Below, one piece after another: positions 16,072-36,660 of a stretch of DNA of 43,456 bases. Made by a program: the position numbers and the translations under genes. The stretch comes from Opitutales bacterium. Lineage in GTDB: Bacteria > Verrucomicrobiota > Verrucomicrobiia > Opitutales > Oceanipulchritudinaceae. Position 1 is the first letter of the stretch. Each line of letters opens with the position of its first letter. The stretch is taken from the NCBI GenBank assembly GCA_020831485.1, contig JAFIGG010000029.1:1-43456 (forward strand). The letters are read 5' to 3'. The notes beneath the pieces are model-generated. The model was given only the letters and a program-made list of their open reading frames with translations, was not told the origin of the DNA and made no database searches.

Positions 16072-17082
16072 CTACCGAGACCGCTCCTGCAGGTATTTGC
16101 GGGTGGCTTTGGGGTGGTCGGTGAAAATACCATCGGCTCCGGCGCCGAACAGGATGCGGTCGAGCAGCTGTTCAAAACTGTCGATGCCGGCGGGCAATGC
16201 ATCGGTTCGGGCGGTGTAGGGGTGGACTACCAATCCGCGCTGATGGGCGGCGGAGACGAGATTGTTGGGGCGGACTTTGCCTTGATCATCGATGATGCGG
16301 GCCTGCGATGGGCCGATCCCGTCGGCATAGCTTGCGATGTGGTCGAGGCCTTCGTCAGTGACCAGTGCGTCCTGAGCCCTGCCGCCGCTGATCAACTGAA
16401 CCAGGCGCAGCTTGCAGCCCAGCTCGCGCAGGCGCAGCAAGGATTCCGGTTCGAATGACTGAACGATGACTGCATCGTCCCGGGTTTCGTAGCCATGGCG
16501 CTGCAGAATGTCCAACAGGATGGCCTCGAAGTCGTGATCCTGATCGGCGTGCCAGGCGGAAAACTTGATTTCCGGATAGATGCCGGTCGATTGGCCGGTG
16601 ACGCGGTTGAGTCCCTGCACCAGTTCGATGATTTCTTCCAGTGTCGCGATGCGGAAATGCAGATGCCGATGGCTGTTGTCCCAACGTTCGGGGTAGCGGA
16701 GTTCACCGCTGGCGGCCTCGACACGCTCGCGGACGCGCAGCTGTTTGATCTCGGCCAGGTCGAAGTCGATGGCATAGAAGCGGCCGTCTTCTCTGGCGCG
16801 TTGTGGAAACCGTTCGGCGACGTCCGTGGTAGCGTCGAGCGTGCGGTCGTGCAGTGCTATGGGCACGCCGTCACGTGTCAGCATCAAGTCCGGTTCAATG
16901 TAGTCTGCACCGAGACCGTAGGCGAGGGTGTAGGCTTCGAGGGTATGTTCCGGCAGCTTTCCGGATGCGCCGCGGTGGGCGATGACGGATTTAGGTTCCG
17001 TGGATTCGGTGGACTCTGGCGGAGGCAGAGAATGCGCTGCAGGAATTAATATCAACGCTGCCAACAGGAAGCACTTGTCCAT
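16072..17082 (-). CDS. Exported glycerophosphodiester phosphodiesterase (GDPD)
   Basis: About 336 residues from the ATG at 17082, which gives a short signal peptide (MDKCFLLAALILIPAAHS); the ATG at 17100 is an alternative. Catalytic landmarks: 'VIAHRGASGKLPEHTLEAY' (catalytic His, Arg), 'GADYIEPDLMLTRDGVPIALHDRTLDATTDV' (metal ligands Glu and Asp, second catalytic His), 'YPEIKFSAW' (metal ligand Glu) and 'GADGIFTDHPK' at the end. It hydrolyses glycerophosphodiesters to glycerol-3-phosphate plus an alcohol, here probably in the periplasm like GlpQ. It is the last gene of the seven-gene phosphorus operon. Length is normal for GlpQ-type enzymes. Confidence 0.95.
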   Translation of the reverse strand: MDKCFLLAALILIPAAHSLPPPESTESTEPKSVIAHRGASGKLPEHTLEAYTLAYGLGADYIEPDLMLTRDGVPIALHDRTLDATTDVAERFPQRAREDGRFYAIDFDLAEIKQLRVRERVEAASGELRYPERWDNSHRHLHFRIATLEEIIELVQGLNRVTGQSTGIYPEIKFSAWHADQDHDFEAILLDILQRHGYETRDDAVIVQSFEPESLLRLRELGCKLRLVQLISGGRAQDALVTDEGLDHIASYADGIGPSQARIIDDQGKVRPNNLVSAAHQRGLVVHPYTARTDALPAGIDSFEQLLDRILFGAGADGIFTDHPKATRKYLQERSR

Positions 17083-17104
17083 GAAATTGAGTGGGCCCAT
17101 AGTT

Positions 17105-18826
17105 TTATGCAGGGCTTCGAGTTCCCTGATTGAGGTGATCCAGTTGGGCCTTATCGCGGGCCACTGCGAAGGTTTTTTGGTCTTGCCAGTGTTCGCCGGG
17201 GCCATTGCGGACTTCAATGCTGAGCGTGTGCCAGCCTTCGTCGAGACCGTGTGGGAGTTTTGCCCTCCATTGGTGGTCGGTTTTCATGGGTGCCGGCAGA
17301 ATGCCCTGGCCGGATTCCGGATGGGTCTCGCTGCGCTCGCGCAAAGCGATGTAGCTAGGGTCTTCAATCTCCATCTGCGTCATCGGAATCCAGCGGCCGT
17401 CGTTGACCCGCATCCGGACCATGCTTTGCTCCGAGCCGGCGAAAACGTTCACGTGGACTTCGGTGCTGTCCAGTTCGGCGGATTCAACAACACTGGGCAG
17501 CGTGATGGTCATACGGTCGCCTTCGGGTTTACCCAGTGAACGGATGTCGATCTGATAGCGGTCGGCGCCCTCGAAGCGAACAACGGCATAGCCTTTGGGG
17601 GATCCGTCTCTGCCGGGGCTGAAGGGTACTCCCTCGGCGTCGAGTGGGCCGCGGTACCAACTGCCACAGGTGGCTGTCAGGTTGCAGTGGTGGTGCTCAG
17701 CGCCGCCCGGGGCGCGGTAGCCCTCGTTGGCACCCAGGAAGTAGTTCATGTTGATATGGGTGTGGCCGGAGAAGGAGAGGGTATAGCGGTGACCGGACAA
17801 GACCTCAAGCAACTCCCGGGTTTCCGCGGTTTCGTGTTTCCTGTCGCTGTCCGCAGTATTTGCGAGGGGAATGTGGGAGCAGATCACGATGCGTTCATCT
17901 GCCGGAACATGCTGTAGGTAATTCCTGATGTACTGGAATTGTTCGGGTCGGATGTGACCCCGATACTGTCCGCGTCGTGGCCAGCCATCGGCACGCATTT
18001 GGGTGAAGCCTTCCCAGTAGACATTGTTGAGGACTAAGAAGTGAACACGACTATACTGGAATGCGTAAGTGGTTGGGCCGTAGATCCGCTTGAAAGTCTC
18101 TTCTGAATAGCGGTCTTCTTTGGCCATGAAGTTGAGGTCATGGTTTCCAATGACGTTGTGCCAGGGAAAACTGCAGCGTGCATTGATTTTGTTGTAGGGC
18201 CCGTAGATGTCGAGATGGTCGCCGACTATATCGCCCAGCGCTACTGCGAATGCGACTGGCAGAGAACTGAACGCTCGAGTCGTTTCCTTCGCATACCATT
18301 TGAGGTGTTCGAGGTGGTAGCACTGAGGGTCGGCGGTGAAAAGCACCTCGAAGGACTCTGGCTCCACTTGTTGGTGTAAAGGGAAATCAATGCTCTCCGG
18401 CAAGGGTCCGGTTGGGGCAATGCCCTTGTAGATGAAATCCTCATCCGGGCTGCCTTCAGGCTTGTGGATGTAGTAGAACTTGGGAAGCTTTAGTTCATCT
18501 ATTTTAGTGGCATAGCCTCGGGGTTTAATTACGTGCAGAATTGTATCGTCTGAAACAGGTATGCGGTAGTTTCCGTTGGCATCTGTGCGGACAATGTCGG
18601 TTCCGTTTGAAACCAGCACGCCGGGGATTCCTGTCTGGCCCTCGGCGCGGCCGTCTCTGCGACTGTCGAGAAATACCTTACCGGTCGCCTCTTCCTGATT
18701 GCGCCCTACAGGGGCGGATGCGCCGGATGCGCCGGATGCGAGCGCCATGCCGCCCAAAGCGGCCAATGAGAACTGGCCGGAACGTTTAATGAAATTGCGA
18801 CGGGGATTTTCTGATTCTGTGTTCAT
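17105..18826 (-). CDS. Tat-exported calcineurin-like phosphoesterase (MetallophosN-Metallophos-MetallophosC)
   Basis: 573 residues. A twin-arginine signal (RRNFIKRSGQFSLAALGGMALASG) predicts export of the folded metalloprotein. Residues ~48-110 form an Ig-like N-terminal domain ('GKVFLDSRRDGR...PGVLVSNGTDIVRTDANGNY'). The phosphoesterase core shows 'FTADPQCYHLEH' (D-x-x-x-x-H), 'ALGDIVGDHLD', 'NVIGNHDLNFM', 'ICSHIPL' and 'FSGHTHINMNYF', the full set of binuclear metal ligands. The last ~150 residues are the C-terminal beta domain. Family members cleave phosphomono- or diesters; the substrate is unknown. It sits 17 bp after the HAD phosphatase gene and just before GDPD, so a role in phosphorus release is likely. 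Confidence 0.93.
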   Translation of the reverse strand: MNTESENPRRNFIKRSGQFSLAALGGMALASGASGASAPVGRNQEEATGKVFLDSRRDGRAEGQTGIPGVLVSNGTDIVRTDANGNYRIPVSDDTILHVIKPRGYATKIDELKLPKFYYIHKPEGSPDEDFIYKGIAPTGPLPESIDFPLHQQVEPESFEVLFTADPQCYHLEHLKWYAKETTRAFSSLPVAFAVALGDIVGDHLDIYGPYNKINARCSFPWHNVIGNHDLNFMAKEDRYSEETFKRIYGPTTYAFQYSRVHFLVLNNVYWEGFTQMRADGWPRRGQYRGHIRPEQFQYIRNYLQHVPADERIVICSHIPLANTADSDRKHETAETRELLEVLSGHRYTLSFSGHTHINMNYFLGANEGYRAPGGAEHHHCNLTATCGSWYRGPLDAEGVPFSPGRDGSPKGYAVVRFEGADRYQIDIRSLGKPEGDRMTITLPSVVESAELDSTEVHVNVFAGSEQSMVRMRVNDGRWIPMTQMEIEDPSYIALRERSETHPESGQGILPAPMKTDHQWRAKLPHGLDEGWHTLSIEVRNGPGEHWQDQKTFAVARDKAQLDHLNQGTRSPA

Positions 18827-18843: not shown

Positions 18844-19695
18844 TTAGCGTTGTTGGGTGGAGCGAAAGCTTTCGGTCAGCGCCTCACCGAGTTCGGCGAC
18901 GCTCTGGAAAACGAAGTCGGGCTGAAAGGGACTGTTAGCCATGTCGGCCCGGGTGGCTTCGCCGGTCAGTACGAGGGCGCTGTGGACGCCGACTGCATTG
19001 GCCATGGCGATGTCTGTGTAGAGCCGGTCGCCAACGACCATGAGTTGAGAGTGACTCAGCTGCCGGCGCTTGAGGATGCCTTCGATCATGATCGGGTGGG
19101 GCTTACCCATGGTGGCGACCGGTGCTCTGCCAGTCGCGGCTTCGATCGCCGCGCAGAGTGCTCCACAGTCGAGGACGAGGGTGGGTTGATCGGTCGGACA
19201 AACAAAGTCCGGGTGGGTGGCAACGTAGTCCAGACCACGATCAATCCAGTATGCGGCCTTGCACAGGTCCGTATAGCTGAGGCTTGGGTCGAAGCCAACT
19301 ATGATCAGTTCGGGCTTGGCACGGGTCAGTCTGTAGCCCGCCTGATACAGCTCGGCCCGAAGACCCGGGGTGCCGACGACAAACAGGGATTTGACTCCCG
19401 GATAGTTGAGCTTCAGGTAATCGACAGTGGCGTGGGCGGAGGTCCGTATCTGCTCAACCCTGGCTTCGATGCCCAGGTCGGCAAGGTTGTCGACGTGCTC
19501 ATCGGCGCTACGGGAAGAGTTATTGGTGAAAAACGTATAGGTAATCCCATGCGTCTTCAGGCACTCCATGAAGGGCTTGGCTGCCGCGAACAGGGTGCTG
19601 CCCTTGTACAAGGTTCCGTCCATGTCCAGAGCCAGGTGCAGGGTGCCGTTGAGGATACTGTGGCGGGTTGTTTCGTCGTGAGGCTTTGGGTTCAT
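18844..19695 (-). CDS. HAD-IIA family phosphatase (NagD-like)
   Basis: About 283 residues. The ATG at 19695 overlaps the stop of the upstream permease gene by ATGA, indicating translational coupling; the frame is open further upstream but inside phnE. Motif I is 'LALDMDGTLYKG' (nucleophile and acid/base Asp), motif II 'FFTNNSSRS', the C2-type cap lies between, motif III Lys is in 'MGKPHPIMIEG' and motif IV is 'VVGDRLYTDIAMA'. This is the NagD/p-nitrophenylphosphatase pattern. There is no signal peptide, so it acts in the cytoplasm, where it could release phosphate from an imported phosphate ester. The natural substrate cannot be read from sequence. Confidence 0.93.
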   Translation of the reverse strand: MNPKPHDETTRHSILNGTLHLALDMDGTLYKGSTLFAAAKPFMECLKTHGITYTFFTNNSSRSADEHVDNLADLGIEARVEQIRTSAHATVDYLKLNYPGVKSLFVVGTPGLRAELYQAGYRLTRAKPELIIVGFDPSLSYTDLCKAAYWIDRGLDYVATHPDFVCPTDQPTLVLDCGALCAAIEAATGRAPVATMGKPHPIMIEGILKRRQLSHSQLMVVGDRLYTDIAMANAVGVHSALVLTGEATRADMANSPFQPDFVFQSVAELGEALTESFRSTQQR

Positions 19696-20504
19696 GATAC
19701 GGCCTTTCGGATGCGGGCGGAAAGCCATTCGCTGAACACAACCATGAGGAAGATGATTACCAAAATCATGCTGACTTGAGACCAGCGCAGTGCGTTGACG
19801 GAAGCGTCGAGTTGCAGGCCGATTCCACCGGCGCCGACAAGACCGACAATAGTGGATTCCCGGATGTTGATATCCCAACGAAACACTGAAATACCGACAA
19901 AGGCCGGAAATACCTGGGGAACGATGCCATAAGTGAGGACCTGGAGCGGTGTGCTTCCGGTCGCCCGGATTGCTTCAACCGGTTCATTGGAAATTTCTTC
20001 AATCGATTCATAAAGTAGTTTCGCGATGAATCCGACTGACCGCAGGGTGATTGCCATGATTCCGGCGACGACTCCGGGACCGAACAGGATTACAAACAGA
20101 ATGGCCCAGATCAGCGTGTTGATGGAGCGGCTGGAAACGACGACCAGCAGGGCAATTTGGCGGATCAGCTTGTGCGGTGTTGTGTTGTTGGCTGAAAGGA
20201 ATGCCAGCGGGAGAGCAATAACGATGGCGAAAAAGGTTCCCAATGTGGCAATGTTCAGTGTGTCCCAAAGCGGCCTCCAGATCGATGTCATGTAGGAGGT
20301 TTTTGGTGGAATCATGCGCTCGATCAGGTCGCCCGCCTGGCGGTGCGCATCAGCGACGAATATCCACAAGGTTGCCGCGCTGATTTCGCGAAAAGAGAGC
20401 AGAAGCAAGGCCAGGAAAAACAGCCATCCGAGCCAGGTCAGCAGTCGGGTTTTCGGCGTTCGTCGTTGCCAGGTTTTGGTTCCGTTGTGTTCGTTGGTGG
20501 CCAT
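19692..20504 (-). CDS. phnE: Phn-type ABC transporter permease, second copy
   Basis: 270 residues with about six membrane segments. The ATPase-coupling loop is 'EAIRATGSTPLQVLTYGIVPQVFP', the EAA motif of the phosphonate-type permease family, and the C-terminal block 'FRWDINIRESTIVGLVGAGGIGLQLD' is highly typical of PhnE. It starts within the stop of the first permease gene (TAATG overlap). The two permeases are similar in length and in these blocks, so they probably form a heterodimeric pore. They carry the ligand delivered by PhnD (phosphonate, phosphite or a phosphate ester) across the inner membrane. Confidence 0.94.
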   Translation of the reverse strand: MATNEHNGTKTWQRRTPKTRLLTWLGWLFFLALLLLSFREISAATLWIFVADAHRQAGDLIERMIPPKTSYMTSIWRPLWDTLNIATLGTFFAIVIALPLAFLSANNTTPHKLIRQIALLVVVSSRSINTLIWAILFVILFGPGVVAGIMAITLRSVGFIAKLLYESIEEISNEPVEAIRATGSTPLQVLTYGIVPQVFPAFVGISVFRWDINIRESTIVGLVGAGGIGLQLDASVNALRWSQVSMILVIIFLMVVFSEWLSARIRKAVS

Positions 20505-21319
20505 TACAGCAAGCGTTTGCGGATGAGTCCGGAAATGTTTTCGGTGAGCAGCACGATAAGAATGATCAGGATCAGGATCGCTGCAGCGCTGGAAAACTCG
20601 TAGCGGTTCAATGTGGTGCTGAGAGTCGCTCCAATGCCGCCTGCGCCAACGACGCCAATGATCGCCGATTCGCGGAAGTTGATGTCCAGCCGGTAGAGGC
20701 TGAGCCCAACCAGTCTGGGGAAGACTTGTGGCAGCAGTGCAAAGATCAGTATCTGCGGAGTGGATGCCCCCGTGGCGCGGATCGCTTCAATTTGATCGCG
20801 CGAACAGGCTTCAATATCTTCGGCCAGCAATTTTCCAAGAAAACCCACTGTGGCCACAACCAGTGTTACCAAACCGGCAAAGGGGCCGAATCCAAACATC
20901 ACGACAAAGAAGATCGCGATCATTACCTCAGGGAAGGTGCGACTGAGAGCGATTATCGCCCGGCAGACCAGATACACTGGCGTTGGGGCAAAATTTCGCG
21001 CTGCGCCAATGCTCAGCGGTATCGATAAAACCACTCCCAATGCGGTTGCTACCAGAGTCATCGTCAGGCTCTCGATGAATCCTTTGATGATTTCGTCGGA
21101 GCGTGTGATGAAGTCGGGCCAGAAAAATCCGCCGATGAATTCGCTGGCCCTTGGGATGCCTGCGAGAAAGCGCGGGACATCGATGCCGAGGGTTATCAGG
21201 GCAAAGAAAAGATAGAGTGTGCCGCCGGAAATCAAAGCCCATCGGAGTAGAGGGCTTTCAATCAGCCGAGGACGCCGCCAAATACCTGAGGATGGCGACT
21301 TGGGTTCAGGATTGCTCAT
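20504..21319 (-). CDS. phnE: Phn-type ABC transporter permease, first copy
   Basis: About 271 residues from the ATG at 21319 ([11 protein letters not shown]), overlapping the end of phnC by 14 bp; an ATG at 21334 is also possible. Six hydrophobic segments are visible, with the coupling loop '[28 protein letters not shown]' and the family block '[25 protein letters not shown]'. It is a paralogue of the next gene rather than a fragment, since both have full-length membrane domains. Part of the phnD-phnC-phnE-phnE transporter set. Confidence 0.94.
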
Positions 21320-22100
21320 CGTCTTGCTCTCCATCCGTAGACCAGCTTTCTTCTCCGTAAATGGTACTCAGAACGCTGTTTTCAAGTTGATTGGGTTTGC
21401 CTTCGAAAACCACTGTGCCGTCGCGCAGGCCAACGATCCGATCCGAGAACATGCGCGCGAGCTCAACATCGTGCAGATTGGCAATGACTCCCAGGTTGCT
21501 CTCTTTTGCCAGTTCGCGCAGCAGTCGCATGATCTGACGCGCGGTTTTTGGGTCGAGGCTTGCGGTCGGTTCATCGACCAAAAGCAGCTCAGGCGACTGC
21601 AGTAACGCGCGGGCGATGCCAACGCGCTGGCGCTGACCGCCGGATAAGCGGTCGGCGCGTCGGTTCTCGAATCCATCGAGACCCACGCGCTCCAGCAGCT
21701 CGAATGCGCGGTTTATGTCCGCCTGGGGAAATTTCCTTCGCCAGCTTTGCCAAAAGCCCGTGTATCCGAGACGTCCGGAGAGGACGTTCTCCATGACTGT
21801 CAGGCGGTCCACCAAGGCATAGGACTGGAAGATCATGCCAATGCGCCGGCGGACCCGGCGAATTGCCGCTCCGTGAAGCCCGAGAACTTCTGAGTTCTTG
21901 AGTTTGCAGCTCCCTGAGCTGGCTTCTACCAGGCCGTTGATGCAGCGCAATAGAGTGCTTTTGCCGGCTCCCGAGGGCCCGATGACGGTGAGGAACTCCC
22001 CGCAGCCGAGGCTGATATCTATGCCCTTCAGAACCTCAGGTCCAGCGGCATACTGTTTGCGCAAAGCGTTAATTTGTAGGATTGTTGTATCGGTAGTCAT
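21306..22100 (-). CDS. phnC: Phn-type ABC transporter ATP-binding protein
   Basis: 264 residues. Walker A '[18 protein letters not shown]', Q-loop '[26 protein letters not shown]', signature '[32 protein letters not shown]' with Walker B, and the switch His in '[13 protein letters not shown]'. The 'NVLSGRLGY' block is characteristic of PhnC. It powers import through the two PhnE subunits. Its ATG overlaps the phnD stop by 4 bp (22097-22100), so translation is coupled. Confidence 0.95.
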
Positions 22101-23077
22101 CGGTCCGAATAAGTGATGCCAAAGCCACGGTCGACGAGGCGTATAACCTCCCAGTGTTCTTTGTAGCTGATGGGTATGAACTGGTTTTCCCGGTATTCCC
22201 TGCCGAGGCCGGTGGCTTCCCAGTCGAAACTGAAAAAGGCCTCACGGATCTTTTCGGCAAGGTCCGGATGTAAATTGTAGGCATGGCCGTAGGCCGTGGT
22301 CGGGAAAGTAGGAGAGCGGTAGATGGTCCGAACCTGATCTTCCGCGAGAATACCGCGGTCTGTCATTCGGTGCAGGACGGTGTTGGCAATAGCCGCCGCA
22401 TCGTAGTCATTATTCGCGACTCCCAGGATCGAGTTATCGTGTTTTCCCGAGAAGCGTGCCTCGAAATCGATATCGACCTCCATCTGGAATTCTTCTCTGA
22501 GGATTACGGAGGGTGCCTTGAAACCGCTGTTGGATGTGGGCGAGGTGAATGCGATGGTTTGGCCCCGTAATTCTTCTACACTCTGAATGGGGCTGTCTGC
22601 TGGGACGATGATTTCCATCTCATATCCGAAGCTTCCATCTTCCATTGCCATCATGGCAAAGGGAACGAATCCACACACATTCACTGCCAGAGGCACGCTG
22701 CCGGTGTTGAAACCGGTGACATGTAAGCGTCCTGCGCGCATGGCCTCCAGTTGAGCAGCATTGGACTGAACGGGAAAGAAGACGACTTCACGCCCGGTTG
22801 TTTCCGCGAGGTGGTCAAGGAATTCAGCCCAGACATCTCTATAGACAGCTGGATCCTCCACTGGCGTGTAGGCAAAAACGATTTTCCGCGGATCACTCCA
22901 GTCGCTTGGGTTGTCGGGCAGATCTGCCACCATGTCACCATTTTCGTCAATGAAGCGTGTCGAGAGATCTCCGTTGCCAGACGGCGGTTGTTCGGTACAA
23001 GCGCTGGTGATAAGCGCCATTATTAAGGCCGGGAGGATCTTTAATAGATAACGCTGGAGTCGGCTAGGGCGATGCAT
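22097..23077 (-). CDS. phnD: Phosphonate/phosphite-type substrate-binding lipoprotein
   Basis: 326 residues. The signal peptide ends in a lipobox-like 'LITSAC', so the protein is probably lipid-anchored in the periplasm. The mature domain matches PhnD-type binding proteins: '[69 protein letters not shown]', then '[24 protein letters not shown]' and '[14 protein letters not shown]'. The SPTSNSG segment should contact the phosphorus oxyanion. It is the first gene of a seven-gene operon. AGAGGG abuts the ATG directly, so the transcript may be nearly leaderless. A Pho-box-like array (23109-23137) ends 31 nt upstream of the ATG. Confidence 0.93.
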
Positions 23078-23108
23078 CCCTCTAGACTAGCTTCTGAATC
23101 TGTCGATT

Positions 23109-23137
23109 ATGCTACGGACGTGTGACGATTGTGTTAC
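23109..23137 (-). promoter_or_regulatory. Pho-box-like array upstream of phnD
   Basis: On the minus strand, three 7-mers TTGTAAC, TCGTCAC and CCGTAGC are spaced by 4 bp each (11-bp period), the arrangement of PhoB direct repeats. The last repeat ends 31 nt before the phnD ATG. A TAGTCT element lies between and could serve as the -10. Confidence 0.65.
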
Positions 23138-23227
23138 AAGAAGAAATAGAAGTTAAATTGTTAAATTTACTGTATTTAAAATCGAGTGTATCGTAAAGCA
23201 ATTACAAGCGATCCGGAAAATTCTGCT

Positions 23228-23256
23228 GTGTAACCGAATCGTAACCGACCTGTCAC
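23228..23256 (+). promoter_or_regulatory. Pho-box-like array upstream of the TonB-dependent receptor
   Basis: On the plus strand GTGTAAC, TCGTAAC and CTGTCAC are separated by two 4-bp spacers, again an 11-bp period. The array ends 35 nt before the receptor ATG at 23292. It faces away from the phnD array, so the divergent intergenic region seems to carry one box per direction. Confidence 0.65.
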
Positions 23257-23291: not shown

Positions 23292-26200
23292 ATGATTTTC
23301 TCTGCTAGTTTAAAGAAAGTGTGCAGCCTTTACGCTGCGGTAACGCTCGGGATGATTCCCGGGATTTCAGCTTGGTCGGCCGTGATCTCAGGGACGGTCT
23401 ATGACCAGGACAACGCCATCTACCTTGAAGGGGTGCGTGTCTCGATTCCCTCTCTGGAACGCAGTGTAACCACGGATCGTGGGGGCCGTTACCGGTTCAG
23501 CAATGTTCCCGAAGGGTCGTTCACCGTTGTGGCTACACCGACAGGGGTCCCTGCCGAGCGCCGGCCGGTCGTTCTGGAAAGTGTAAATGATGAAGTCACA
23601 ATGAACTTCCTATTTACTCGCGAAGGCCAGATTTTCGATCTGGAAGCATTTGCGGTTGAGGGCTCATTGATCGGCGCGGCCAAGGCGATGGATATTCGGC
23701 GAGCGGCCCGCGATTACCGTGAGGTTGTTTCGTCCGATGCCTTCGGTCAGTTCACCGACCGGAATCCGGCGGAAGCCCTCCAGCGGGCTGCGGGCGTTAC
23801 CATGGAAACCGATCAGGGCGACGGCAGCTTCGTGATTGTACGCGGTGGCGCGCCGGAATACAGTTCGGTGCAGATCGACGGGGTTTCTCTGGCAACACCT
23901 GAAGAGGATGGGCGCAGGGTGAACATGAACGTGATAACCAACGATCAAATCGAGCGCATTGAGCTTTCCAAGACTTGGCTTCCGGAACAAAAGGGCAATG
24001 TCATTGGTGGAACGGTCAATCTGATTACCCGGAGTGCGCTCGACCGCGGCTCCCGATTTGCAAGGATCGAGACCAGTGGGACCTATCGGGACCACCAGGA
24101 CCGCTGGAGTTACCGGGGTGCCGTAACCTATGGAGAAGTCATTGATGGTCAGACCCTTTCCTTTCTCGGCGAAGGTGCCATCGGCTTACAGTTGTCTGTG
24201 AATCAGGGAGTGGACTACTCGGGCTCCGACACGGTGACCTGGGGATGGAACCTGGATAAGGGTTACCCGTTTCGCACCCGCCCGGGAGAGGACCGCCCCC
24301 GCGGCTTCTCGCTGCAGAATCTGGACATGCGCCATTTCAACATTGAGCGCGACCGTCAGGGCGCTTCCGGCCGCCTCGAATACCGCATTAATCCAAATCA
24401 CGAAGTTTACCTTTCTGCCAGTTATAACCGCTTTGAAGACACCGTTAACGAGCATCTGTTCTCGCAGAGCCTCACCGACAGCAGCCAGTTTTATTCAGGC
24501 ACTCAACTGTTCACCTCGTCCGTGGCTCAGCAGCTGGACGCGGATTTGGACGACCCCTTCAATGCCGAGCGCCTGGCCATGTCGCCGAACAACACGAACA
24601 AACGGATTACTTTTAATGAGGCCATTCAGCTCGGGCAACTGGCCTACGATGAAGACAATCGCCTGTTCACCCGCGGTGGTTTGTGGCCCCTGAACATGAG
24701 CCGCACCTACCGGCACACACTCCGTGAAGACCGGATCACAACCTATCAGCTCGGAGGCACCAGCCGCCTGCCGATGGAAATCGATGTGGAATGGAAACTG
24801 TATAACTCGGAAGCGCGTCAGGATTCGGAATTGAACTGGATGGATTTCGCGACTGAAAGCTCAACAGGATCGGGAGCCATTCCGGTCGCTGGGGTTGAGA
24901 ATCCCTATATCCAGGATCCGGGTGGAGACAATCCGGTGATTTCACGAAAGGGGTCTTTCGGAGCGTATTCGAACCTCACGGGTCGGACCGTGCACCGCAA
25001 TACAAAGACCTTGAGTCTGGATGAGCGCAGTGGTGGTGATCTGGATGTTTCGAAGGAGTTCGATGTAGGGTCGACTCTCTGGACTACGCAAATTGGTTTT
25101 TCCCTTGATCGCCGGGACAAGGAATACCGGATCGACCGCACCTCTTACGGGCTTGCTCAGGGGAGTCTGGATCCGGAACGCTGGCCAACGGGTGTCATGA
25201 CTTTGGCCGATCCGTTTTTCGACGGCGGTGACATCGAAGGGTTCCGAAAGAACTTTGGCGAAGAACTTCGCTTTGGTCCTTCGTTCCACGAAGCAAACAC
25301 CCTGGCCTTCATGAAAGGGGAGCAGGCGGAAGGGCTGATTTCTTGGAATCAGGTGCCCAACATGATCAATAATGATTTTACTGCGAGGGTTCAGAACAAC
25401 TACGACTCCACGGAAGATATTTCCGGGTTCTACTTTCAACAGAGCATTGAGTGGCGTGCCTGGACAGCGATCTTCGGGGCTCGCTACGAGCGCACTGAAA
25501 ATTCCTTCCGCAACCTCGAGATCATAACGGACGGGACCGAAGGCGGCGTTTCCGGCCTGCCGCCGTTTATTTCCCCGGCTTTGTGGCGCTTGTTGCCGGA
25601 AGAGGCTTTCGGTCGCCAGGTTCTCAATGAACGCGATTACAGTCACCTGCTGCCTGCCGTTCACGTTATTCGCACTTTGGGCGAAAATGCAGTTGTTCGG
25701 GCCTCGGTAACCAAGACCATCTCCCGACCACTCTTTTCAGACCTGATTCCACGCGAGATTCCTTCGATTTCCGGAGGTAATTTCCAAAGCGACATTCAGC
25801 TGCCAGCCTTTGACCTCGAAGCGACCGAATCGGTGAATCTGGACCTTTCGCTGGACTACTATTTCGAACCTATTGGCATGTTTTCAGTGGCAGTCTATTA
25901 CAAAGAACTGGATGGCCCTATCTATGATGAGGTTCGCCTGAATGTGGGTCCGAACGAAGAAACTGCAGCCTGGGCTCTGAAATACGACAGTCGCAATGTC
26001 AACTGGCAGCCGGGTGATCCGATTTTCAATGACAATGACTATACCTTTCGACGCAAACGTAATGCTGGCAAGGGTGCACTCTCTGGAGCAGAAATCACAT
26101 TTAACCGACGTTTCGATTTTCTGCCAGGGGTCTGGAATGGATTTGGCATCAACTCGAACATTGCCTGGTTCAGCTCCCGCGCCGAACTCCTGACCGAGGC

Positions 26201-26585
26201 CCGCTTTGGGGAGACCGTCAATTTGTTTAAACAGCCTAAAATGACAGGGAACCTTGCTCTGTATTTTGAGAAGCATGGACTGTATGCGCGTCTTGGATAC
26301 AATATGCGCGGGCGCTATCTCGACAGTGTTTCCGGTGGAACGGCTACGGTCAATCGACTGGATCAGATGGGGCTGCATCCAAACTCCTACGACATTATGG
26401 TGGATCGCCGTTCCCAGCTCGATCTTTCCCTGCGTTACCGGATTCGCGGATCGTTTCAGGTTTTCGCTGAAGCCAGTAATTTGACCAACGAGCCCTTCGT
26501 TCGAATTCGGCGCGACCGCTCACGCCCGCACTCAAGGCAATACACCGGCCAGGTGTACACCATAGGCGTCAACTGGACGCTCTGA
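23292..26585 (+). CDS. TonB-dependent outer-membrane receptor
   Basis: About 1097 residues from the ATG at 23292; a TTG 9 bp upstream is also open. A signal peptide (about 1-30) is followed by a carboxypeptidase-regulatory-like beta domain (about 32-115; 'ISGTVYDQDNAIYLEGVRVSIPSLERSVTTDRGGRYRF'), a plug domain ('DRNPAEALQRAAGVTMETDQGDGSFVIVRG', 'SSVQIDGVSLATPEEDGRRVNMNVI', 'IERIELSKTWLPEQKGNVIGGTVNLITR') and a long beta-barrel ending in the aromatic strand 'VYTIGVNWTL'. The plug matches the TonB-Xanth-Caul type of receptors, often used for sugars, phytate or other complex ligands. No SusD partner follows. The Pho-box-like array upstream and the co-directional secreted proteins suggest uptake of a phosphorus-containing ligand. 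Confidence 0.93.
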   Translation: MIFSASLKKVCSLYAAVTLGMIPGISAWSAVISGTVYDQDNAIYLEGVRVSIPSLERSVTTDRGGRYRFSNVPEGSFTVVATPTGVPAERRPVVLESVNDEVTMNFLFTREGQIFDLEAFAVEGSLIGAAKAMDIRRAARDYREVVSSDAFGQFTDRNPAEALQRAAGVTMETDQGDGSFVIVRGGAPEYSSVQIDGVSLATPEEDGRRVNMNVITNDQIERIELSKTWLPEQKGNVIGGTVNLITRSALDRGSRFARIETSGTYRDHQDRWSYRGAVTYGEVIDGQTLSFLGEGAIGLQLSVNQGVDYSGSDTVTWGWNLDKGYPFRTRPGEDRPRGFSLQNLDMRHFNIERDRQGASGRLEYRINPNHEVYLSASYNRFEDTVNEHLFSQSLTDSSQFYSGTQLFTSSVAQQLDADLDDPFNAERLAMSPNNTNKRITFNEAIQLGQLAYDEDNRLFTRGGLWPLNMSRTYRHTLREDRITTYQLGGTSRLPMEIDVEWKLYNSEARQDSELNWMDFATESSTGSGAIPVAGVENPYIQDPGGDNPVISRKGSFGAYSNLTGRTVHRNTKTLSLDERSGGDLDVSKEFDVGSTLWTTQIGFSLDRRDKEYRIDRTSYGLAQGSLDPERWPTGVMTLADPFFDGGDIEGFRKNFGEELRFGPSFHEANTLAFMKGEQAEGLISWNQVPNMINNDFTARVQNNYDSTEDISGFYFQQSIEWRAWTAIFGARYERTENSFRNLEIITDGTEGGVSGLPPFISPALWRLLPEEAFGRQVLNERDYSHLLPAVHVIRTLGENAVVRASVTKTISRPLFSDLIPREIPSISGGNFQSDIQLPAFDLEATESVNLDLSLDYYFEPIGMFSVAVYYKELDGPIYDEVRLNVGPNEETAAWALKYDSRNVNWQPGDPIFNDNDYTFRRKRNAGKGALSGAEITFNRRFDFLPGVWNGFGINSNIAWFSSRAELLTEARFGETVNLFKQPKMTGNLALYFEKHGLYARLGYNMRGRYLDSVSGGTATVNRLDQMGLHPNSYDIMVDRRSQLDLSLRYRIRGSFQVFAEASNLTNEPFVRIRRDRSRPHSRQYTGQVYTIGVNWTL

Positions 26586-26637: not shown

Positions 26638-29523
26638 ATGAAACGATTAACAAAAACAATCAAGACCTGCTTATTGGCAGGTGCTTTCGCGCTCGCTGGA
26701 CAGTTTGCTTCCGCTCAGGAAATGCTGTTTCAGGAGAGCTTTGAGACAGATGGAGAGGGTGAGCGCTACATAGTCATCGGTGGCGGTGACAATCCCGATG
26801 ATCCACGCATGGCCTTTGCCCGTCGAAGGGTAGGAACAACCGGTACTCTAGGCCAGGGCGATCTGCTAGATGGAGATTGGATGTGGATGGCCCGGCGCAT
26901 GACGACGGTTCCGGGACCACGTGGGGATGAATTCGAAGGCGAAGGCCTTTCGGACCGGGATGCCCGCCTCAAGTTTCCCGATATTGATGTCTCTGGTTAT
27001 GGAGAGTTGTCCGTCCGCCTCGTGATTATGGTGGGCGCTCCAGGTCACGAGCCGAACGACGATTTTAAAATGCGGGTTCGTTTCGACGGTGGCGAATGGC
27101 AGGAAATTGGAGGCTTTCGCAGTTCGACGAGTAACTCCTGGCCAATCTATTACCAGGGCCCTTCGGACACAATGACGGTTCAGGACGATCCGAATAAACT
27201 GATCCGATTCTTCACTGAGTGGGAGTGGCCTATCTACAACCACGGCGATGAAATGGAGCTGCAACTGACCTTCTCGGGAAATGCTTTCAATGAAGATTGG
27301 TATGTCGACAATATCCGGATCTTTGGTGAGTCGGATCTCGGATTCTTTGACCTCAGTTTTGCCGAGGACCAGGTGACTGAACCTGAGGCTGGAGCCGATG
27401 GTGTTCGGAATGACCTTACAATTACTCTCAACGAGCCAGCTCCAGCTGGTGGAGCCAGTTTTACGCTCACCCCACCGGATTACCGCACGGCAAGTTCACT
27501 CAGCCTGCCCGAAGAGCCTGTTGTCATCGCAGAGGGCGAAACCTCGGTCGTTGTGCCGGTTGAAATCGTTCAGGACAATCAGTATACCGGTTTGAAGCGC
27601 ATCGATCTTTTTGTCTCAGGCGAAGGTTACAACACTGGGTTCGCAAGAACCTTTGTGGAGAATGTGACACCACGACCCAAGCTGATTTTCACCGAAGCAT
27701 TGAATGTGGTTCCCGGCATTGGCGTTGGCAATATCGTCGAAGTGCCTGTGGGCGACGCGAACAACGACGGAGATATTCACAATACCCGCGACCAGTTCAT
27801 CGAGTTGGTCAACATCGACGACCATCCGGTGGACCTGAGTGGCTACCGTATCGGTGATGACCTGGATGATAGGCACTTGATTCCGGATGGCACCATACTT
27901 TATCCAAACACCGCATTGGTTGTTTTCGGTGGCGGTGAGCCACGGGGAACTTTTGGTGGGGCTATCGTGCAAGTAGCATCTGGCGGCGGCAACGGTCTCG
28001 GGCTGAACATCGCCAGCCGCGCTGAAATCATGTACCTGACGGCTCCGTTTGGCGCCGAAGTGGAACTGGTGAATATCTGGATGCAGCGGGCGGATATCTG
28101 GGCGATTACACAGGAACTCGATCCCGAGCACCATGCTTACAACCTCTCAGGTTCCTTTCACCGAACCTCCCTGGAGTGGACTGAGCCGGGTTTTGAATTT
28201 GGACCTGAACACCTTCACTTCAATATTCCGGGAGCGACCCAGAATCTATATGCTCCGGGCACTTGGTATGACGGGACTCCCTATTTTGATCCCGAGAACG
28301 AATTGACGCTGACGGTTAGTGAGGAAACGATTCTGAAGACCGATGGTCGCAACGCCGCCGTTGGCCAGATTGTATTGGCCGAACCGGCTCCAGAGGATGG
28401 TTTGAAAATCACTCTGGATACCAATGGTGTGCGCAGTGGAGCCAATGGCGAAGTGATTCCATACATCATCGATTTGGATTCGATAGAGTTGATGGTGCCG
28501 GCAGGGGACACTTCCATCGAATTTCGCATTGGCGCTCACAACGACGGCGTATTGACCGGAGATCGAATTGTTGGTCTGACCGCACGCGCGGGACCTTACG
28601 TTCTCCCTGGCTTTCAGGAGTTCACTGTTCTTGAAACCATGGAAGACGACCTGAATCTGGTTATCAATGAAGTCTATATTGATTCCGAAGGAGGTGCCAT
28701 CGACATGAACGGCGATGGGATTTCCGGTGACCCTATGAGCGATCAGTTTATTGAAATCGTCAATCTATCCGGACGTCCGGTGAATCTTGCTGGATTTCGT
28801 ATCTGGTGGGACTCAGGCAGTGCCTTTGCCATCCCACGCGATGTCCATTATTTCTCAGGTGGTACCTGGATTCCCGATCAGGGTGCTGTGGTGGTTTTCG
28901 GAACCTTTCCTCAGGACACCATGCAGCATCCGGATTATGGTGGTGCCACCGTGCTTGGCGCCCGCAATGCGGATGGAAGCCTCAAACGAAATGGTCTTGA
29001 CCTGGATACGAGTAACATGACTTTACGGATCGACAATCCTTATGGTTATACTGTTGCCGAGGCAGAGATCGATTCCAGCCTTACGGCGCAGGACCAGTCG
29101 ATGGTCCGGAGTCCCGAACTGACCGGCGAATTCAAGCTCCATCTTGAAGTGGCCAGTACCGAATACCTGCGCTTTGACATCGCGACTCCCGGTCTGGCGA
29201 CTTCTGGAGATCCATTCGCAGGGAATGGAGGATTGCTTTCGCCGTTTATCTACTTCCCCCAGATCGTGGAAAAAGTGGTTCCAGGCCTCTGGTATCGGGA
29301 TTCCAGCTTTGGCTGGATCGGATTGGATGCTCAGCAAAATTCGGATTCCGCCTGGGTTTATGCCGCGAGCTTCAATTCATGGTGGTACCTGCCCGAAAGC
29401 TATGACAATGGACTGTGGATCTATGATCAGAATCACGAAACATGGTTCTTCACGCATTATAACTACACTCCGTGGATGTGGAATTATAACACCGAAGAGT
29501 GGGTCGATCGTTCCGCCCTCTAA
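26638..29523 (+). CDS. Secreted protein with two lamin-tail domains and Trp-rich C-terminus
   Basis: 961 residues. Signal peptide 1-26 (ending ASA). Residues ~30-230 are a beta-sandwich-like region ('EDWYVDNIRIFG' at its end). Residues ~235-340 and ~565-660 look like Calx-beta or Ig-like domains ('LTITLNEPAPAGGASFTL', 'IVLAEPAPEDGLKITLD'). Two lamin-tail domains (LTD) lie at ~347-480 ('LIFTEALNVVPG...DQFIELVNIDDHPVDLSGYRIGD') and ~671-800 ('LVINEVYIDSEGG...DQFIEIVNLSGRPVNLAGFRIWW'). Bacterial LTDs often accompany extracellular nucleases and phosphatases. No catalytic domain is seen, so it may be a binding or scaffold protein. The end (~882-961, 'GLWYRDSSFGWIGLD...WVYAASFNSWWYLP') is the Trp-rich domain. 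It is 52 bp after the receptor gene, likely the same transcript. Confidence 0.85.
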   Translation: MKRLTKTIKTCLLAGAFALAGQFASAQEMLFQESFETDGEGERYIVIGGGDNPDDPRMAFARRRVGTTGTLGQGDLLDGDWMWMARRMTTVPGPRGDEFEGEGLSDRDARLKFPDIDVSGYGELSVRLVIMVGAPGHEPNDDFKMRVRFDGGEWQEIGGFRSSTSNSWPIYYQGPSDTMTVQDDPNKLIRFFTEWEWPIYNHGDEMELQLTFSGNAFNEDWYVDNIRIFGESDLGFFDLSFAEDQVTEPEAGADGVRNDLTITLNEPAPAGGASFTLTPPDYRTASSLSLPEEPVVIAEGETSVVVPVEIVQDNQYTGLKRIDLFVSGEGYNTGFARTFVENVTPRPKLIFTEALNVVPGIGVGNIVEVPVGDANNDGDIHNTRDQFIELVNIDDHPVDLSGYRIGDDLDDRHLIPDGTILYPNTALVVFGGGEPRGTFGGAIVQVASGGGNGLGLNIASRAEIMYLTAPFGAEVELVNIWMQRADIWAITQELDPEHHAYNLSGSFHRTSLEWTEPGFEFGPEHLHFNIPGATQNLYAPGTWYDGTPYFDPENELTLTVSEETILKTDGRNAAVGQIVLAEPAPEDGLKITLDTNGVRSGANGEVIPYIIDLDSIELMVPAGDTSIEFRIGAHNDGVLTGDRIVGLTARAGPYVLPGFQEFTVLETMEDDLNLVINEVYIDSEGGAIDMNGDGISGDPMSDQFIEIVNLSGRPVNLAGFRIWWDSGSAFAIPRDVHYFSGGTWIPDQGAVVVFGTFPQDTMQHPDYGGATVLGARNADGSLKRNGLDLDTSNMTLRIDNPYGYTVAEAEIDSSLTAQDQSMVRSPELTGEFKLHLEVASTEYLRFDIATPGLATSGDPFAGNGGLLSPFIYFPQIVEKVVPGLWYRDSSFGWIGLDAQQNSDSAWVYAASFNSWWYLPESYDNGLWIYDQNHETWFFTHYNYTPWMWNYNTEEWVDRSAL

Positions 29524-29545: not shown

Positions 29546-32128
29546 ATGATGAATAAATTTCTTAAAATTCAATGCCTGCTGCCGAGCCTTTTGCTGGTTC
29601 CGGTCCTGCAGGGAAGTCCCGTGTTGTTTGAAGGCACTCCAATAGTGGAAAACTTCAACTCCATTTTTGTGCCGGCTCCGGACTCGGAAGAGGATCCGAC
29701 CGTGCTCACTGGAACCAACACCGTGGGCAACCAGGTTGCGATTCCAGACCTGCCGGGTTGGCAAGCGGCTCGCATCGGTGGGTCAGGGTCCTCAAACATC
29801 GCGATTTGGGGCGATTCTCCCAATGCCGGTGGTCGCTTTCACGCCTGGGGCGAGGATGGCGATCGATCGTTCGGGTCGCTGTCCTCAGGTGCCAACAATC
29901 AGGGTTTCGGACTGGTCATCGAGAATGACACCGGAGACACCTTGAATGAGGTGAGCATCACCTACACGCGCCGTATTTGGCATGCGCAGGGCACCTCTAC
30001 GAGTAATCCGTTTGAGAGCTTCATGGAATTCTCTTATGGGGTGGAATCCGATGGGATCGAGGAGACAGACTTCATTACCAGCACGGCGATGACCCGTTTC
30101 CTCGATCTGGATGCCGTCAGCCCGGCTTCAAATACAGTCCTGGAAGTTTCCGGTGGCACGGATCCGGACCGGAGACGAGACGGCTTCGATTCCGAATGGA
30201 ACGAGGAAGTCAGCGGAACGATCACGGGCATCGTATGGGAACCGGGTGAATTGCTGTTCATACGTTGGAATGACTTCAATCAGAGTGGTTTCAATGCCGG
30301 GCTGGCGATTGACGACTTCGAACTGACTGCAACCTTTGATCCGGATGTGGAACCGCCTGAGGAGGAACCCGAGCCAATCACCAACAGCTATACCGGAGGA
30401 ACCTGGCTCGAGACCTTTGATAGCCTGGTGGCTATCGACAGCGACAACCGTCCGGCTCTTACCGGCACAGGGGTAGTTGGCAATCAAGTCGAGATCCCCA
30501 ATCTCAATGGCTGGCAAGCCGCCCGCCTTGGCGGATCGAGCACAGCAGATATCACCTTGTGGGAAGATTCTCCGGGCGCCGGGGGTCGATTCTACGCCTG
30601 GGGTGATGATGTTAACCGATCCTTGGGTTCTATCGCATCCGGTGCCAGTATTCAGGGTTTTGGAACGGCACTGGTCAATGAAACCGATGAGACTTACGAT
30701 TCGGTAACGATCACCTACACCCGTCGTATCTGGCATCTGCAGGGGACTGGTGGCGATGGTCTCTACGAGAACTGGCTTGAGTTTGCCTACGGTTTTTCCG
30801 GAGAGGACATCACTGCAGAGAACTTCATCACTCATGTGGACATGATTCGCGTGGAGGATCTCGATGCCGTGAGCGATGAGGAGAATACGGTTACCGGTAC
30901 CAGCTCTGGAACCGACCCGGACCGTCGGGTAAATGGCTTTGACGCCGAGTGGACAGAGGTGGTTACAGCCACGCTGACCGATATCAATTGGGAACCAGGC
31001 GAAATGTTGTTCCTTCGCTGGAACGACTTTGACCAGACAGGTTTCGATGCCGGTATCGCGGTCGATGACCTCCGGGTGCGTGCCGATGACTCGACCGGAC
31101 CTCAGCCAATTGCTTACAGTGGTGGCTTCTGGACAGAGGATTTTGACTCGATCCCCGTTGTAGATACGGACTCCCGTGTCTCGCTGACAGGAACCAATGT
31201 CGTCGGTAACCATGTCGCCCTGCCAGGATTGGAAGGCTGGTATGGCGCTCGCTTGGGTGGCTCAGGAACCGGGAATATTACCCTCTGGGAAGACTCTCCC
31301 GGTGCAGGTGGTCGCTTCTATGCGTGGGGCCAGGGAACGAATCGCTCCCTTGGCTCATTGGCCTCCGGTGCAAGTGTTCAGGGCTTCGGCGTGGCACTGC
31401 GAAATGATAGCTCAGAAACCTATCGGGAAATCGTCCTTTCCTATACACAGCGTATCTGGCACCGGCAGGGAACCAGCACGGACAACCTCTACCGAAACTG
31501 GCTCGAGTTCGGCTATGGCCTGTCCACGGATGGGGTGGGGATCAATAACTTCCTGGTCAGTGAATCAGTCACAGAATATCCGGAGATGGATGTGGTCAGT
31601 TCGGCTTCCAATACGGTTACCGGAACCAACGCCGGAACGGATCCGGATCGCCGGGTAAACGGCATGGATCCACAATGGAGCCAACGCCGTTCCACTCGTA
31701 TTTCGGATATCGAATGGGCTCCTGGCGAAACCCTGTTCCTGCGTTGGAATGATTTTGACCAGGATGGATTCGATGCGGGAATGGCCATTGACGATTTGGA
31801 AATGATCGCATTGTCCGTCCCGGGAGCAGCCATTTTCCCAGCCGATACCTTTGTGCAGGCCATTCCTTATGGGGGCGGTGCCTGGTATCGCGACCCAAGT
31901 TTTGGCTGGCTGGGTCTTGCAGAGCCAATGGACCTTGGGAATCCTTGGATCTATGCATTCGACCATCAGGCATGGTGGTTTGTTGTTCAGGTGGATGGCG
32001 ACGGTTTCTGGCTTTTTGATACCGTCGAGGAAGCCTGGTTCTTCACCAGCTATGACATCGCGCCCTGGATGTACCAGCTCACTGACGACTCTGAAGGTGA
32101 GTGGGTCTATCGTGGCTCGGATGAGTAA
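29546..32128 (+). CDS. Secreted protein with three tandem 'FDSL' modules and Trp-rich C-terminus
   Basis: 860 residues with a signal peptide (about 1-23). Three modules of ~230 residues follow one another (about 33-275, 288-515 and 530-755). Each opens with F-N/D-S-I/L, then 'GTNTVGNQVAIPDLPGWQAAR' or its variants, 'GGRFYAWGDDVNRSLGSIASGASIQGFG', 'SVTITYTRRIWHLQGT' and 'LFLRWNDFDQTGFDAGIAVDDL'. The G-Y/H-A-W-G...R-S-L-G-S-x-A-S-G-A core is a pattern known from N-terminal regions of secreted nucleases and PEP-CTERM proteins. It probably forms a jelly-roll binding domain. The last ~85 residues ('AWYRDPSFGWLGLAEP...PWMYQL') are the Trp-rich domain. No catalytic motif was found. It starts 22 bp after the LTD gene and is followed by a strong terminator. 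Confidence 0.82.
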   Translation: MMNKFLKIQCLLPSLLLVPVLQGSPVLFEGTPIVENFNSIFVPAPDSEEDPTVLTGTNTVGNQVAIPDLPGWQAARIGGSGSSNIAIWGDSPNAGGRFHAWGEDGDRSFGSLSSGANNQGFGLVIENDTGDTLNEVSITYTRRIWHAQGTSTSNPFESFMEFSYGVESDGIEETDFITSTAMTRFLDLDAVSPASNTVLEVSGGTDPDRRRDGFDSEWNEEVSGTITGIVWEPGELLFIRWNDFNQSGFNAGLAIDDFELTATFDPDVEPPEEEPEPITNSYTGGTWLETFDSLVAIDSDNRPALTGTGVVGNQVEIPNLNGWQAARLGGSSTADITLWEDSPGAGGRFYAWGDDVNRSLGSIASGASIQGFGTALVNETDETYDSVTITYTRRIWHLQGTGGDGLYENWLEFAYGFSGEDITAENFITHVDMIRVEDLDAVSDEENTVTGTSSGTDPDRRVNGFDAEWTEVVTATLTDINWEPGEMLFLRWNDFDQTGFDAGIAVDDLRVRADDSTGPQPIAYSGGFWTEDFDSIPVVDTDSRVSLTGTNVVGNHVALPGLEGWYGARLGGSGTGNITLWEDSPGAGGRFYAWGQGTNRSLGSLASGASVQGFGVALRNDSSETYREIVLSYTQRIWHRQGTSTDNLYRNWLEFGYGLSTDGVGINNFLVSESVTEYPEMDVVSSASNTVTGTNAGTDPDRRVNGMDPQWSQRRSTRISDIEWAPGETLFLRWNDFDQDGFDAGMAIDDLEMIALSVPGAAIFPADTFVQAIPYGGGAWYRDPSFGWLGLAEPMDLGNPWIYAFDHQAWWFVVQVDGDGFWLFDTVEEAWFFTSYDIAPWMYQLTDDSEGEWVYRGSDE
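29646..31810 (+). repeat. Three in-frame tandem repeats of about 0.7 kb inside the coding sequence
   Basis: Units lie at about 29646-30335, 30405-31090 and 31138-31810. DNA similarity is still visible in places, for example 'TCGCTGGAACGACTTTGACCAG' and its variants at the end of each unit, and 'GGTCGCTTCTATGCGTGGGG' and its variants in the middle. Units 2 and 3 look closest to each other, which points to duplication within the gene. Confidence 0.75.
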
Positions 32129-32259: not shown

Positions 32260-34428
32260 ATGAAAATTAACAAGAGAAATAGAGTCAGGATTTTCTCGCT
32301 GACTGCGCTGGCAATGGTATTGCTTTCGACGGTTACCAGTGGCCAACAAACCATGTACCGTTTCAGTTTGTTCGAGTCCGCGAAATACTCGGGACAGTTC
32401 AATTCAGCTCTGGACGCTTTGCAATCCAACATGCCCGCTGAACGCAGAGTCGAAAGAGGCAGCACCTATGGCTTCGAGGATTTCGTCTTCGCTGAATTCT
32501 CCAGTGATCAGAGCGTCGTTTTTGCGCCCAGGTCGGGAGTCAACCTGCCGAGCGGTGACTTTTCAATAGTAGCTCATATACGTCCGGTGGAGCTGACGGG
32601 TGAACAGTGGATTCTTCAGACCCCTGAGTCGAGCCATGGTTATCTGGCAATGGGCCTGGACGGGGGTCGCTTGTTTGGAGAGGTTCTGGTTGCCAATGGG
32701 GATCAATCGGTTTTCCAGCGAATCCATGCACCTGAAGCTTTGGAGAGCGGCGTTTGGTATCGGCTGGTCTATACCGTTTCGGATCAGGGAACGGATGGCA
32801 TAGTTCATTCGCTTTGGATTGACGAGGATCTGGTGGTCCGTGAGCAGACACCAGAAATACGGCTGCAACCTGATCCCGACGGATCTGAGGTTCCAACGGT
32901 CGGTGGTTCTCTGGATGCGGATGTGTTTGCGGTGGAACTATTTGATTACGAGCTTGCCGACTATTTCCTCGAGAGTCCTTTGATCCGCGACGGTTCGGCC
33001 TACTTCGGGATGCCTGCATACTTTGGCGAGCTTGCGGGAGGACGACACGTTGTGCCGCTGGATCAACGTTTAATGACCACCATTCGAAATCCCAATGGCT
33101 CAATGCGCTACCCTGAAATGGAGGCTCGATTGGAGAATCGCTGGATATTTCCCTTTCACAACGATTCCTTTGTGATTCAGGGGATTGCTGCCGATCCTGA
33201 AAACGGTCGAATCTTTCTCGGAATGTATCACCGTTCCGCGGACAATGTATCCTATGGCTTTCCAAGTATCGTCGTAGAGTTGTTTGTCCCCGAGGGCAGG
33301 ATGGGGAATGTGTTTGTTTTACAGACTCCTGATGGAGCTCCATTTACCTCTCACATGGGAGGGATTGCCTACTGGGACGAACTTGTTTTCGTTCCGGGAC
33401 CCAGCCGTGGATCCGCTATGGATCCGGACCTGTATGTATTTGATGTCTCAAGTGTCGATGCTTCGGATTTTGACCCGGGAACGATGGAAGGATTCGAATT
33501 GAAATTGCTGCCTGCCCTCCACCGCTACACCGATCCTCTCGGAGTTCTTGGGAGTGAGGGGCGTTTCAACAGTCTTTCCTATATGGATATTCATGTGGAC
33601 AAGGAAGATCGGATTCTACTCAACATCGGCAATTTTCAGGCCGACGTGGCGCGGCCGGTCCACTCCTTCCATCTGTTGTTTACGGATCGACGGCATCCAT
33701 ACCTTATGCAGCCCCGAACTGTGATGCAGACCAATCGCAGGGCACAGGGCGGAGTCTATTACCTTGATGTGGAAACACCATCTGGCGTGCAGGCCCGGCG
33801 CATGCTGCTTTCGACCAGCTTCGGAGACAGCGACAGTGTGATCTTTAATTCACTGTATCTGGAACCGGACCCGCAGCCACGAACCAGTCAGGAATGGATG
33901 CGCTTGCCCGCTGGCTTGGAAGATATGACCCAAATGGGCAACAGCCTGTGGACGACTTCTGAGTCTGGAATGGTCTATTTTCAGAAACGACCCTCCAATC
34001 CCTGGACGGATCTTTTCCCGTTTTTGATACAAATTGATATGGGCGACCTGATCGACACCCGGGGGCACGGAGTCACCGACGCCTGGTACACCAAACACGG
34101 TCTGACGGGTTCCGTCGATCCAGCTACCGATCGCGATGGCGATGGATTCAGCATCAGGGACGAGTATCTATGGGACACGGATCCCGAGGATCCCGCAGTC
34201 TATCCCTGGTCAGGAGCCGAAGTGCACGCAAGCCACCTGAGCGTTGAGACCTCTCTGCGCCGGTTCTACACCCTGCAGCGTCTGGATCTTGACTCAGGTA
34301 GCTGGGAAAATGTGCCGGATCAGGTCAACCGCCGCGGCAATGGCGGTCTTATGGATTTCCCCCTGCCTGAGCTTGAGTCGGAAGACGCGAACTTTTACCG
34401 GGTCGTAGTCGGGACCGGACCCCAATAG
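32260..34428 (+). CDS. Secreted protein, LamG-like and EF/TSP3-like regions, function unknown
   Basis: 722 residues with a signal peptide (about 1-30). Residues ~70-215 resemble a LamG/concanavalin-like sandwich ('FEDFVFAEFSSDQSVVFAPRSGVNLPSGDFSIVAHIRPVE', 'LWIDEDLVVRE'). Residues ~255-590 are a beta-rich region of propeller type with 'GIAADPENGRIFLGMYHRSADNVSYGFPSIVVE'; related BNR-like proteins act on or bind polysaccharides, but no catalytic residues can be pointed to. A calcium-binding-like segment 'DPATDRDGDGFSIRDEYLWDTDPEDP' lies at ~625. The C-terminus ('RRFYTLQRLDLDSGSW...NFYRVVVG') is the FYRV-type domain common on verrucomicrobial secreted proteins. It follows the terminator at 32208-32234. 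Converges on the PLD gene across repeat copy 2. Confidence 0.72.
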   Translation: MKINKRNRVRIFSLTALAMVLLSTVTSGQQTMYRFSLFESAKYSGQFNSALDALQSNMPAERRVERGSTYGFEDFVFAEFSSDQSVVFAPRSGVNLPSGDFSIVAHIRPVELTGEQWILQTPESSHGYLAMGLDGGRLFGEVLVANGDQSVFQRIHAPEALESGVWYRLVYTVSDQGTDGIVHSLWIDEDLVVREQTPEIRLQPDPDGSEVPTVGGSLDADVFAVELFDYELADYFLESPLIRDGSAYFGMPAYFGELAGGRHVVPLDQRLMTTIRNPNGSMRYPEMEARLENRWIFPFHNDSFVIQGIAADPENGRIFLGMYHRSADNVSYGFPSIVVELFVPEGRMGNVFVLQTPDGAPFTSHMGGIAYWDELVFVPGPSRGSAMDPDLYVFDVSSVDASDFDPGTMEGFELKLLPALHRYTDPLGVLGSEGRFNSLSYMDIHVDKEDRILLNIGNFQADVARPVHSFHLLFTDRRHPYLMQPRTVMQTNRRAQGGVYYLDVETPSGVQARRMLLSTSFGDSDSVIFNSLYLEPDPQPRTSQEWMRLPAGLEDMTQMGNSLWTTSESGMVYFQKRPSNPWTDLFPFLIQIDMGDLIDTRGHGVTDAWYTKHGLTGSVDPATDRDGDGFSIRDEYLWDTDPEDPAVYPWSGAEVHASHLSVETSLRRFYTLQRLDLDSGSWENVPDQVNRRGNGGLMDFPLPELESEDANFYRVVVGTGPQ

Positions 34429-36643: not shown

Positions 36644-36660
36644 TCTGCTGCCTAGTTTAG

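Follow-up and report, generated by a model that had tools for sequence, protein, structure and literature searches.

Predicted divergent Pho-type promoters between a phnD-like operon and a TonB-dependent receptor gene in an Opitutales bacterium

Direct-repeat arrays in the shared intergenic region

The 43,456-nucleotide stretch of DNA analyzed here (the window) raises the question of what controls two operons that leave one intergenic region in opposite directions, one starting with a phnD-like gene and the other with the gene for a TonB-dependent receptor (TBDT). Their intergenic DNA holds a back-to-back pair of three-unit direct-repeat arrays, one per direction (Table 1). The unit sequences are present as the first-pass annotation had claimed, and the 4-bp spacers and 11-bp period are exact in both arrays. 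The TBDT array ends 35 nt before the ATG at 23292, as had been stated, and the distance from the phnD array to the ATG at 23077, given earlier as 31 nt, was measured as 33 nt. The half-site proposed at the time, nYGTnAC, describes five of the six units and fails for CCGTAGC, the third unit of the phnD array. A PHO box is defined by 11-bp direct repeats of seven conserved and four less conserved bases (PMC4415409), and at least two direct repeats of this kind are found in both arrays.

Table 1. Coordinates of the genes and candidate regulatory elements discussed in the text
Feature	Position	Strand	Sequence or basis
Glycerophosphodiester phosphodiesterase (GDPD)	16072..17217	-	PF03009
Calcineurin-like metallophosphoesterase	17105..18826	-	PF16370, PF16371, PF00149
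HAD-IIA family phosphatase	18844..19878	-	TIGR01460 over cut-off; ORF start mechanical, true start probably near 19692
PhnE permease 2	19692..20504	-	TIGR01097 over cut-off
PhnE permease 1	20504..21334	-	TIGR01097 over cut-off
PhnC ATP-binding subunit	21306..22100	-	TIGR02315 over cut-off
PhnD-like ABC substrate-binding protein	22097..23077	-	PF12974 9.8e-64; TIGR01098 over cut-off, TIGR03431 (PhnD) below
-10-like hexamer, phnD promoter	23106..23111	-	CATAAT, 10 bp past 18-bp box
Three-unit array, candidate Pho box of phnD	23111..23139	-	TTGTAAC acaa TCGTCAC acgt CCGTAGC
Units of phnD array	23133-23139; 23122-23128; 23111-23117	-	TTGTAAC; TCGTCAC; CCGTAGC
Core two-unit box of phnD array	23122-23139	-	
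Three-unit array, candidate Pho box of TBDT	23228..23256	+	GTGTAAC cgaa TCGTAAC cgac CTGTCAC
Units of TBDT array	23228-23234; 23239-23245; 23250-23256	+	GTGTAAC; TCGTAAC; CTGTCAC
TBDT	23292..26585	+	TIGR01782 over cut-off
Secreted protein, lamin-tail domain, downstream of TBDT	26638..29523	+	PF00932; synteny
Secreted protein without assigned family, same module	29546..32128	+	synteny
Secreted protein, weak laminin-G-like match, same module	32260..34428	+	synteny
Secreted PLD-like domain protein	34682..36643	-	PF13091; downstream of next site
Second candidate Pho site of window	36661..36709	-	TTGTCAC tcaa TCGTCAC acac TCGACAC ca TCGTGAC gcaa TCGTGAC

The phnD promoter reads TTGTAACACAATCGTCAC-ACGTCCGTAG-CATAAT, where ACGTCCGTAG is the N10 between the 18-bp box and the -10 hexamer. 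The genome's own pst promoter reads TCGTAACGCAACTGTAAC-AAAACCTTCA-TAAAAT and the Escherichia coli phoA promoter CTGTCATAAAGTTGTCAC-GGCCGAGACT-TATAGT, with AAAACCTTCA and GGCCGAGACT again being N10. Given that the phnD layout matches both, its promoter has the classical spacing. No convincing -10 hexamer follows the TBDT array, where the expected place holds just CGAATG or GGGAAA. In this clade, pst promoters often have a degenerate third unit, approximately ccGnCAC, and behind it a tail like nnAAtCGnC. This combination is shared by phnD and less well by TBDT, with equal scores reached at 1.6e-4 of window positions for phnD and 0.0018 for TBDT. The third unit of the TBDT array is itself better than that of the phnD array, its three units scoring 7.5, 10.2 and 9.4.

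A model built from the pst promoters of relatives

Across the 3.86-Mb genome the strict three-unit pattern was matched once, by the TBDT array, compared to a chance expectation of about 0.06 from base counts. The two-unit pattern was not enriched genome-wide (18 matches versus 22+24 for the backward control), with some matches intragenic and one before an Hsp70 gene. As proof, the plain two-unit scan was uninformative given that it returned fewer matches than its control; the pattern alone would be no proof, and a fairer test was therefore required. We searched for PstS in 89 related genomes, with a match in 64. In the best of these, the region preceding the porin-pst operon or pstS was inspected, and many showed sites of the same form. 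A weight matrix was made from the pst promoters of 11 relatives, with no site of the own genome included. On the 43-kb window its seven best positions fell at phnD, TBDT and 36659-36709, all intergenic, and first-order Markov sequences gave an expectation of 0 to 0.075 sites per window at those scores.

A sequence-only model of the same 11 pst sites (38 bp each) was run on the whole 3.86-Mb genome; in these genome scans no more than 150 first-look candidates were scored for each genome, and weak sites may be missed. Five matches were obtained up to E 10: the genome's own porin-pstSCAB-phoU promoter on contig C131 (E 7e-4), phnD (E 0.0028), the PLD-like gene in the window (E 0.29), position 23186 of contig C53, directly upstream of a Porin_O_P gene and ABC operon (E 0.40), and TBDT (E 0.60). 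Four of these precede genes of phosphorus-transport type and the fifth precedes the PLD-like gene, while the reversed-column model had 0 matches in the same genome. The ABC transporter parts of the Porin_O_P operon best match 2-aminoethylphosphonate families, below cut-off. The same motif thus stands upstream of pst and of further phosphate genes of one genome, the recurrence by which a PHO box is recognized. The first-pass annotation had predicted that a genome scan would find phosphate genes, and a non-circular model did recover porin-pst-phoU and phosphorus-transport-type genes instead of a random scatter. Its view that the arrays are hard to explain by chance is likewise borne out, given that a matrix from other genomes ranks them at the top of both window and genome.

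The site at 36661-36709 consists of five half-sites, a triple and then a pair beginning 31 bp after the triple start, and makes the PLD-like gene a candidate third Pho target in the window. Two dimers were also noted elsewhere in the genome. A strong one, TTGTTACAAAACTGTAAC, lies on the plus strand of the Porin_O_P contig (G000:C53:28588-28605; L031:6589-6606; matrix score 20.8), in front of a 288-aa gene with no Pfam match and after the Porin_O_P/ABC operon that also bears a site. The other, TTGTCACGAAAACGTAAC, on the minus strand of G000:C61 (L035:5829-5847), has TAATTT 10 bp downstream and precedes a 173-aa gene without Pfam match.

Across 17 genomes of the family, the relatives' model gave 26 matches with E no higher than 0.5, spread over 13 of the genomes, versus 1 match for the reversed-column control. 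The training set accounts for four of the 26 (G001, G002, G005, G009) and for none of the own-genome matches. Non-training matches lie before a Na/Pi cotransporter gene (G013), before pstS-like genes (G012, G015) and in the mnmG-phoB gap of G002, and some family matches precede genes without an evident phosphorus link. Sites of this motif precede pst operons in the family and in the order at large. The comparison of phnD upstream regions covered just three good orthologues: the upstream DNA of G002 ends at the contig end, and the phnD homologues of G056 and G069 had no box upstream.

Several sites in relatives are recorded as observations in their own right. The Pho-like dimer between mnmG and the phoB-phoR pair of G002 (C82; L157:4393-4410) suggests phoB autoregulation in that genome; upstream of the own phoB gene no such box was seen. 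Three-unit arrays precede a 133-aa ORF in G003 (C15:66233-66264; L136) and G010 (C17:29771-29802; L144), which by eye has the look of a TonB C-terminal protein. A site in G004 (C117:10645-10669; L149) precedes a glycosyltransferase gene, SqdX-like by eye, and possibly points to lipid remodeling at low phosphate. A TBDT site in G011, TTGTAACAAATGCGTCAC, was set aside as weak because it overlaps the likely start codon.

Operon genes and comparable systems

The PhnD-like protein scored 142 bits with the PhnD equivalog model, whose cut-off is 261, and PhnJ (C-P lyase) is absent from the genome, which is 96.8% complete. The name phnD is therefore used loosely, and phosphonate use is not established. 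In the relative G002 the module genes are collinear on one strand, from phnD through a 722-aa homologue, and the TBDT, 62% identical, has an array directly upstream, in the GDPD-TBDT gap, that makes up the two top-scoring sites of an 18-kb stretch. That the TBDT keeps its own array even where the genes are collinear argues for a function in common and for a separate Pho promoter of the TBDT. It is possible, if somewhat doubtful, that both operons belong to one system under Pho control whose substrates are phosphodiesters or organic phosphorus of a similar kind. On this tentative reading, the system would consist of a TBDT of its own and the secreted partners of that receptor, of phosphoesterases, and of a PhnCDE-like importer with a role other than phosphonate breakdown by C-P lyase, in a module conserved despite a change of order (collinear in the relative, divergent here).

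The E. coli PhoB promoters phoA and pstS (PMC4415409) are alike in having two 11-bp repeats of 7+4 bp and, as at phnD and pst here, 10 bp to the -10, and the systems share a PhoB-PhoR pair with pst and phn-type genes as targets, predicted ones in the present case. They differ in the half-site (CTGTCAT in E. coli, nYGTnAC here), in the degenerate third unit that is common here and in the absence of PhnJ from the present genome. In Flavobacterium, TBDT and PusCD loci are induced on phosphate depletion and are co-localized with phosphomonoesterases and phosphodiesterases (PMC8115612). The present TBDT likewise stands beside phosphoesterases, with phosphate control predicted, but adjoins a PhnCDE-type ABC transporter, has explicit Pho sites and, among the genes scanned, no SusD partner. 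Pho boxes are also predicted upstream of the plcP lipid-remodeling clusters, which are phosphoesterase gene clusters of several clades (PMC4796936), although their gene set is another one and the one here is a transporter-receptor module. A literature search on Verrucomicrobia and PhoB found almost nothing on Pho boxes in this lineage, lipid remodeling being the exception.

The likely regulator and the alternatives

The best match to TIGR02154 (PhoB) in the genome is encoded at C24:25883-26554 and is followed by a PhoR/PnpS-type kinase gene; a phoB-phoR pair is thus present, with both members scoring below the NCBIfam equivalog cut-offs. The PhoB homologue shares 41% identity with E. coli PhoB, and its recognition helix, RTIDTHIRRLR, is nearly identical to RTVDVHIRRLR of E. 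coli. This weighs against a reading in which the arrays belong to another OmpR-family response regulator that also uses 11-bp direct repeats. Full-length OmpR/PhoB-type regulators on contigs C129 and C81 could play such a part, but the same motif precedes pst operons in the family and order, the G002 phoB and the Na/Pi cotransporter gene, and we consider this reading improbable. Chance repeats in AT-rich intergenic DNA would agree with the two-unit count, which did not exceed its backward control, but these sites are top-ranked in window and genome by a matrix from other loci in other genomes, where simulation expects practically none per window, so that chance is the least credible of the readings and is very unlikely for the phnD array at genome scale.

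Somewhat less improbable, but still unlikely, is that the phnD array alone works as a Pho box, with the TBDT array weaker or auxiliary (extra PhoB loading, for example) and the TBDT under another regulator or promoter. The difference between the two E values and the lack of a good -10 at the expected distance favor this possibility. It is opposed by the three good units of the TBDT array, by the lack of any other strict three-unit match in the genome and by the array that also directly precedes the G002 TBDT, the best in its 18 kb.

We therefore prefer, with considerable confidence, to read the region as two divergent PhoB-activated promoters. Points that count against this reading are the E of 0.60 and the missing clear -10 of the TBDT array, the PhoB and PhoR scores below cut-off, the boxless phnD homologues of G056 and G069, the G011 TBDT site on the likely start codon and the family matches before genes without an evident phosphorus link. 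That the arrays are Pho boxes of the same kind as before the own pst operon is a well-supported prediction, and their likeness to the sites of that phosphate-uptake operon means that both operons are very likely induced together at low phosphate. The earlier proposal of a single PhoB-type regulator gains support from the pst-model scan and the presence of phoB-phoR, and control of both operons by such a regulator is, on sequence grounds, very likely. We infer binding by the own PhoB, the phosphate response, activation as its direction, the operon extent and the substrate. At low phosphate, the PhoR-type kinase would phosphorylate the PhoB-type regulator, which would occupy the 11-bp repeats of both arrays in head-to-tail orientation and substitute for the -35 contact of RNA polymerase. 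Leftward, phnDCEE-HAD-metallophosphoesterase-GDPD would be switched on; rightward, the TBDT and three secreted proteins. Together these would form a phosphorus-scavenging module, with uptake at the outer membrane, cleavage of phosphoesters and import at the inner membrane.

In summary, the predicted arrangement is an ordinary Pho regulon design with a clade-specific half-site, nYGTnAC, and its control system is already well known. Our analysis yields a Pho-box model, tested by computation, for a lineage on whose Pho boxes we found very little literature. The TBDT and its three secreted proteins are now tied, by prediction, to phosphorus starvation, which makes substrate tests for the TBDT and the PhnD-like protein easier to choose.
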